Positions 40,281 through 40,427 of a stretch of DNA of 64,000 nt are shown here, one piece after another. Both the position numbers and the translations under genes were made by a program. The notes under the pieces were generated by a model, which saw nothing but the letters and a program-made list of their open reading frames with translations, made no database searches and had not been told where the DNA came from. Within the stretch, counting starts at the first letter, position 1; the number at the start of each line of letters is the position of its first letter. The stretch is taken from assembly GCA_031270015.1 (NCBI GenBank), contig JAISYH010000039.1, forward strand, positions 1-64,000, written 5' to 3'. This stretch comes from Burkholderiales bacterium (GTDB lineage: Bacteria > Pseudomonadota > Gammaproteobacteria > Burkholderiales > Casimicrobiaceae).

Positions 40281-40305
40281 AAAATACCTTCCTTTTGGAA
40301 AGGTA
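40281..40305 (-). terminator. Attenuator-like hairpin upstream of leuA
   Basis: Read on the minus strand: TACCTTTCC, loop, GGAAGGTA, then TTTT. The stem is 8 bp with one bulged T. It lies between the leader peptide and leuA, about 26 bases before the leuA ATG, where a leucine attenuator should be. Confidence 0.6.
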
Positions 40306-40340
40306 CGCGCTGATAACAACAAAAAGGGAATAAGAGAAAT

Positions 40341-40427
40341 TTAAATGCGCGCGAGGCGCAGCAGAAGCAGCCCGCTCAACGACAGGCTGGCAAGAAAGAG
40401 GGTTACAAAAACAGTAAAAGAATACAT
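40341..40427 (-). CDS. leuL: Leucine-rich leader peptide of leuA
   Basis: A 28-residue ORF with nine leucine codons, including four in a row ([11 protein letters not shown] at the end), sits between the gene upstream and leuA. It is followed by a terminator-like hairpin, so ribosome stalling at the Leu codons could control readthrough. No strong Shine-Dalgarno sequence is seen. Because the peptide is hydrophobic, a small membrane protein is an alternative. Confidence 0.6.

Follow-up and report, generated by a model that had tools for sequence, protein, structure and literature searches.

The leader between pgsA and leuA is a conserved control element, judging from comparison of the sequences, and most likely a sensor that would let leuA be transcribed only when leucine is short. 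We consider it probable that it acts as a leucine-responsive, ribosome-mediated attenuator, with an intrinsic terminator in the genus of the window (the whole 64,000-nt stretch of DNA analysed) and possibly with Rho, or else some other means, in relatives. According to the proposed mechanism, transcription would start at the leader AUG or a few bases from it, as the conserved promoter suggests, and a ribosome would translate the leader immediately. With ample leucyl-tRNA, the ribosome would reach the stop codon, the downstream hairpin would form and transcription would end before leuA. With leucyl-tRNA short, the ribosome would stall on the four adjacent leucine codons and cover the 5′ arm of a hairpin, P1, freeing a GCGCGC strand; this strand could then compete with the lower portion of the stem that forms the terminator, and leuA would be transcribed. 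The leader-peptide reading is strongly supported by the comparisons described below; the sensing of leucyl-tRNA, the leucine response, the switch itself and its 2:3 antiterminator are what we infer.

Genomic setting, promoter and occurrence of the leader

In the window, which belongs to a genome of 1.94 Mb (G000), the leader region lies on the minus strand, flanked by pgsA (ending at 40544; TIGR00560) and leuA. The interval 40281-40427 singled out by the first-pass annotation coincides exactly with the stretch that opens with the leader ATG and closes with the U-run, and the 28-codon ORF that it described, with nine leucine codons, four of them consecutive, was found at 40427-40341 of the minus strand; the four adjacent leucines were read directly at 40370-40359. 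Its assignment of the gene as a type 2 leuA also held: the product scored 835 bits with TIGR00970 (cut-off 697) and 180 bits, far below the cut-off of 599, with the type 1 model TIGR00973. Just one of the 370 ATG-initiated ORFs of 20-60 aa in the window has LLLL or at least nine leucines within at most 35 aa, a property that the leader ORF shows. The features of the locus are collected in Table 1. Elsewhere in the window, two ORFs on the minus strand (43538-43987 and 44408-45091) share the stretch IFNGEYSIKGNFDYEHLKKIHEELFKE, and the first resembles a cut copy of the second, which looks Fic-like.

Table 1. Features of the leuA leader region, in window coordinates
Feature	Position	Strand	Basis
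Predicted −35 element, TTGCGT	40458..40463	minus	direct reading; TTGC at the matching place in relatives; 17-nt spacer to −10
Predicted −10 element, TATTTT, 7 nt before the leader ATG	40435..40440	minus	TAnnnT hexamer in relatives
Leader peptide ORF of 28 codons; its transcript is probably leaderless	40341..40427	minus	ATG to TAA; an SD precedes the ATG in 1 leader of 45
Control codons CTG CTT CTG CTG (LLLL)	40359..40370	minus	last three positions: Leu in 44, 44 and 45 of the 45 leaders
Hairpin P1, UGCGC-CUCGC-GCGCA, in codons Leu-Arg-Leu-Ala-Arg-Ile	40346..40360	minus	pairing in relatives and compensatory change
G-free pyrimidine-rich linker after the leader stop	40321..40340	minus	20 nt without G in the window
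Intrinsic-terminator-like hairpin, GUACCUUUCC-AAAA-GGAAGGUAU, and U-run	40281..40306	minus	97% of cells paired over 11 genus sequences
leuA, type 2 2-isopropylmalate synthase, presumed target	38507..40255	minus	TIGR00970, NF002991

For the comparison we used 45 leaders: 11 from the genus of the window (its own included), 23 others before type 2 genes and 11 before type 1 genes. The 23 consist of 21 from the same family, L019 from another family and L032 from the named collection, the last being identical to L168 over the part used. L003 and L006 were included only after widening of the motif pattern. L183, in which the leuA match begins inside the gene, was placed by its motif and left out of the stop-to-start and SD-accessibility analyses, for which 44 leaders were used.

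The leader was common to all 43 leuA upstream regions examined in the family outside genus g2 (32 type 2 and 11 type 1). In each of these the ORF ends with a leucine run and then Arg-x-Ala-Arg or a variant close to it (L008 has Arg-x-Val-Arg and L015 Cys-Pro-Ala-His), with the stop codon 15 or 18 nt past the start of the motif CTGCGC; the run is broken by Phe in L007 and L011. The leucine run is kept among relatives (Table 1), and the distance from leader stop to leuA ATG is 81-123 nt in 44 of 44. The N-termini vary in length and sequence, and many are polar. Variant leaders were seen in the ten regions read from g2, for instance UGCGC-ACCCA-GCGCA with a different peptide in L188; the g2 leaders stand outside the 45, and the g2 genomes G061, G062 and G066, with full-length matches, outside the sample of ten regions.

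A search for ORFs of 8-80 aa with LLL in the last 15 residues and at least 40 nt from the gene was positive in 48 of 52 regions of the family vs. 2 of 52 on the reverse strand, which served as control. The corresponding counts were 14 of 23 (control 3) for order-level type 2 leuA loci and 60 of 78 (control 4) for loci of named genomes including Actinobacteria; L087 and L109, with short upstream sequence, are not part of these counts. On this result and on the rarity of such a leucine-rich ORF in the window, we rejected a chance origin of the leader ORF.

Nearly all of the 45 leaders have a TTGC and, about 17 nt on, a TAnnnT hexamer ending 6-10 nt before the leader ATG. Exceptions for the hexamer are L007, which has none, and L015, by the choice of the script used. 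The script ranked candidates by likeness to TATAAT and chose an AT-rich word farther away in several genus sequences; on reading of the same output, TAAGGT lies close to the ATG in these as well. SD-like words are absent before the leader ATG in 44 of the 45. Because the promoter adjoins the ATG and an SD is missing, we predict that the leader transcript starts with the AUG or a base next to it, and the leader is probably leaderless. We also observed an inverted repeat, TGACGCAA-N6-TTGCGTCA, at 40456-40477 of the window, which overlaps the predicted −35 element and might serve as an operator or mark where pgsA transcription ends; the same repeat underlies a sub-threshold Rfam match on the other strand.

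Codon choice and hairpin P1

Within the 45 leaders the last leucine codons vary between CTG, CTT, CTC, CTA and TTG, and the codons for the Arg, Ala and Arg that follow are CGC, GCG and CGC in 44 of 45 each. In five window genes CGC accounts for 48% of the Arg and GCG for 54% of the Ala codons, so codon bias alone does not explain this freezing, with the caveat that the related sequences among the 45 are not independent. The cells of P1 are paired to 100% in the 11 genus sequences and to 98.8% in 33 distinct others. In L015 a compensatory double change turns a C-G pair into U-A, and replaces one Arg by Cys and another by His (R-P-A-R to C-P-A-H). When slid by two columns, P1 was also fully paired in the 33 other-genus sequences, since the sequence is a GC repeat; the support for P1 therefore comes from the double change and the codon freezing. 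RNAalifold applied to the 34 other-genus sequences returned P1 as the sole structure, having missed the second hairpin because the latter varies in length and place.

This pattern of selection speaks for a function of the RNA and of the leucine codons, and against a conserved peptide. Conservation of amino acids instead of leucine codons and hairpins had been named beforehand as an argument against regulation; the outcome favored regulation, with the N-terminus unconserved and the hairpin of L015 kept by a double change.

Downstream hairpin, linker and modes of control

The terminator-like stem expected upstream of leuA is present as a 9-pair hairpin (40306-40284) that runs into TTTT (40284-40281), 25 nt before the leuA ATG at 40255. 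Across the 11 genus sequences it has compensatory changes at two pairs and, together with P1, reaches a covariation score of 0.256 vs. at most 0.105 for slid versions. At least four T were found in the 8 nt after the hairpin in 10 of the 11 genus sequences vs. 2 of the 34 other-genus sequences. The second hairpin begins 22-34 nt (median 29) from the leader stop in all 45 leaders. Compared with shuffles, the whole 201-nt leader is modestly more folded (z −1.59; 15/200), and the hairpin region of the window has a z of −2.49. Mean z values for the second hairpin in other genera, where it rests on single-sequence folds, were −1.02 for the 23 type 2 sequences, which is weak, and −1.77 for the 11 type 1 sequences. 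The sequence signature of a Rho-independent terminator is present between leader and leuA in the window and in 10 of the 11 genus sequences, and is missing in 32 of the 34 other-genus relatives.

Termination in the related genera without a U tail would need other means, with Rho as one possible candidate given the C-rich and G-poor stretch after the stop. The 18 nt past the leader stop contain 48.5% C, 30.2% T and 6.7% G over the 45 leaders, and G-free runs have a median of 15 nt; the linker could keep this stretch single-stranded or load Rho. Rho-dependent attenuation as the general mode, in which the G-free C/U-rich stretch would be a Rho loading site used according to the position of the leader ribosome, the hairpin would be a pause or protection element and the intrinsic terminator of the genus would be derived, seems to us unlikely, even though the base composition of the linker, the lack of a U tail in those 32 sequences and the presence of rho in the genome all agree with it. 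The C-rich stretch, however, is just about 15-20 nt long and the window hairpin has a U-run; moreover, a stall upstream of the stop codon would expose the stretch, which has the wrong sign unless structure masks it.

The attenuator that we prefer was examined with a model in which the RNA is free from 6 nt into the motif when the ribosome is stalled, and, when it has finished, from 12 nt downstream of where the stop codon starts. The predicted probability of the hairpin drops on stalling in 10 of the 11 genus sequences, L007 being unchanged, and mostly shows no drop in the 34 other-genus sequences. As a larger amount of free RNA can lower this probability anyway, segment 2 was shuffled as a control. 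Summed over the genus, the hairpin probability in the stalled state was 4.88 vs. a shuffle mean of 6.87 and a minimum of 5.21; 0 of 100 shuffles were as low, a count that is no probability since the genus sequences are related. For the window alone, the values were 0.62 when stalled vs. 0.76 at the stop, and 29 of 100 shuffles were as low. The 2:3 antiterminator helix is paired in 84.8% of cells, but its covariation is below that of the shuffles (500 of 500 at least as high), and we rejected such a helix in a fixed register; the GC repeat allows several registers, and looser pairing may still occur. Two further candidates were inconsistent across sequences when compared by eye among the sequences and the folds listed, and neither was counted: in one the leucine run pairs with a GAGCAG block farther downstream, in the other the linker pairs with the 3′ arm of the terminator.

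The attenuation proposed by the first-pass annotation is accordingly upheld in part. It gains from the conserved place of the leader, the leucine run with its free synonymous codons, the codon-embedded hairpin and the covarying, U-tailed terminator of the genus. The alternative antiterminator pairing fared worse, having no covariation and, in the window alone, doing no better than shuffles. The Streptomyces leuA leader, in which mutations of leader codons did not behave as in classical attenuation according to the excerpts of PMC1262725, also counts against an attenuator.

Control at the level of translation appears quite improbable, whether the leader ribosome were to expose or mask the ribosome binding site of leuA or to reinitiate on this gene. 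Most actinobacterial leuA leaders have been proposed to pair the leucine run with the leuA SD (PMC1262725, in excerpts), but here it makes no difference to the predicted accessibility of the leuA SD whether the ribosome is stalled or stopped (of 44 leaders, 4 show a rise and 5 a fall, with a mean difference of 0.002), for which reason SD sequestration was rejected. The stop-to-start distance is also far for reinitiation, the upper limit of which lies near the ribosome footprint (PMC4833913, in excerpts). Least credible is the functional small hydrophobic (membrane) protein, leucine-rich by coincidence, that had been offered as an alternative: the peptide is hydrophobic and peTrpL sets a precedent for a bacterial leader peptide acting in trans (PMC7298713, in excerpts), but the N-terminus is unconserved and polar in many relatives, and conservation is confined to the leucine run and the RNA hairpin, in which base pairing is kept when residues change, as in L015.

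Target enzymes, a second leader and known systems

All 11 type 1 leuA regions of the family bear the same leader as the type 2 regions, and in the ten for which a distance was given the motif precedes the leuA match by 119-136 nt. The type 2 gene of G034 (TIGR00970, 821 bits) and the type 1 gene directly after it (TIGR00973, 723 bits) stand behind a single leader (L195, G034:C15). The match coordinates of G086 give the same order, again with one leader (L198, G086:C228). That one leader stands before two enzyme types would be accounted for if such tandems had lost one gene or the other. The upstream neighbor is pgsA in the window, and pssA both at L197 (type 2) and at L198 (tandem).

Other Burkholderiales carry a second kind of leuA leader, here called type B (L025:516-612, L035:2024-2121, L069:2857-2956, L084:2867-2964, L105:2774-2871, L146:3178-3274 (minus) and 14 more). 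It has a leucine run, often with a CTA codon, followed in many cases by ...LPIGCRA-stop, and the codons after the run form GGUUGCCGGGC...GUCCGGCAGCC and a crossing GUGG...CCAC helix. In 20 of 22 sequences (L045 and L060, with different spacing, were left out), 95.9% of cells are paired in helix 1 and 93.8% in helix 2, with a covariation score above all 500 shuffles. No Rfam gathering match was obtained in L069, L084 and L105. By eye, the strand order is like that of the actinobacterial LEU pseudoknot, to which type B is much closer than the window leader is, and type B is a possible proteobacterial counterpart for this unexplained element. In L036, L042, L056, L074, L084, L100 and others the leucine runs contain many CTA codons, and CTA is likely to be rare in the type B genomes. 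Two leaders stand in tandem before leuA in L025, L058, L069, L093 and L160, a leucine-run ORF with LLLR or LLLP ending farther up and the pseudoknot type nearer the gene.

Leucine attenuation is textbook knowledge in enterobacteria, the leader of which (leuL) has four adjacent leucine codons that follow a glycine (G-L-L-L-L). Some betaproteobacterial leaders may be covered by the survey of attenuators in proteobacteria that Vitreschak and others made in 2004. No Rfam family reaches its gathering score at the window leader or in ten related loci; the best sub-threshold match on the leader strand, anti-hemB with 20.8 bits, is far below its cut-off of 49.5, and identity with a known Rfam element was rejected. 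In literature listings and the excerpts of PMC1262725, PMC2965389, PMC6123439, PMC2659441, PMC4833913 and PMC7298713, leucine leaders are described for enterobacteria, Shewanella, Actinobacteria and Firmicutes, and we found none from betaproteobacteria.

Like the enterobacterial leuL attenuator (Rfam Leu_leader; reviewed in PMC6123439, in excerpts), the window leader combines a short ORF, four adjacent leucines and a hairpin terminator before leuA. It differs in having no Rfam match, no SD at its start, a promoter set against the ATG, a P1 that lies just after and not over the leucine codons, and a type 2 enzyme as target. The leuA attenuator of Shewanella shares the leucine leader and terminator; in that gammaproteobacterial case an antiterminator and an anti-antiterminator stem were proposed from compensatory changes (PMC2659441, in excerpts), whereas the window antiterminator is without covariation support. 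With the actinobacterial LEU element (PMC1262725, in excerpts) it has in common a leucine-run leader before leuA, and a clear terminator is lacking both there and in most of the wider family of the window; LEU, however, forms a pseudoknot and a base stem to the leuA SD, and for the window leader a local hairpin is predicted. A leaderless leader transcript, with its 5′ end at the AUG of the ORF, is reported for Sinorhizobium meliloti trpL (PMC7298713, in excerpts) and predicted here, although that system concerns tryptophan and an alphaproteobacterium.

The betaproteobacterial leader of the window is thus one for which we found no described or Rfam-listed counterpart. We tentatively suggest that a Burkholderiales-wide family of leaderless leucine leaders may have stayed in place while the enzyme under its control (LeuA of type 1 or of type 2) and the mode of stopping (an intrinsic terminator in the genus of the window, a U-less hairpin and C-rich linker elsewhere) were exchanged, and that in the ancestral state a second leader, based on a LEU-like pseudoknot, was present in tandem with it. 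If this is true, a sensing leader can outlive a change of both enzyme type and terminator type, and leaderless initiation would be a normal part of attenuators outside the alphaproteobacteria.
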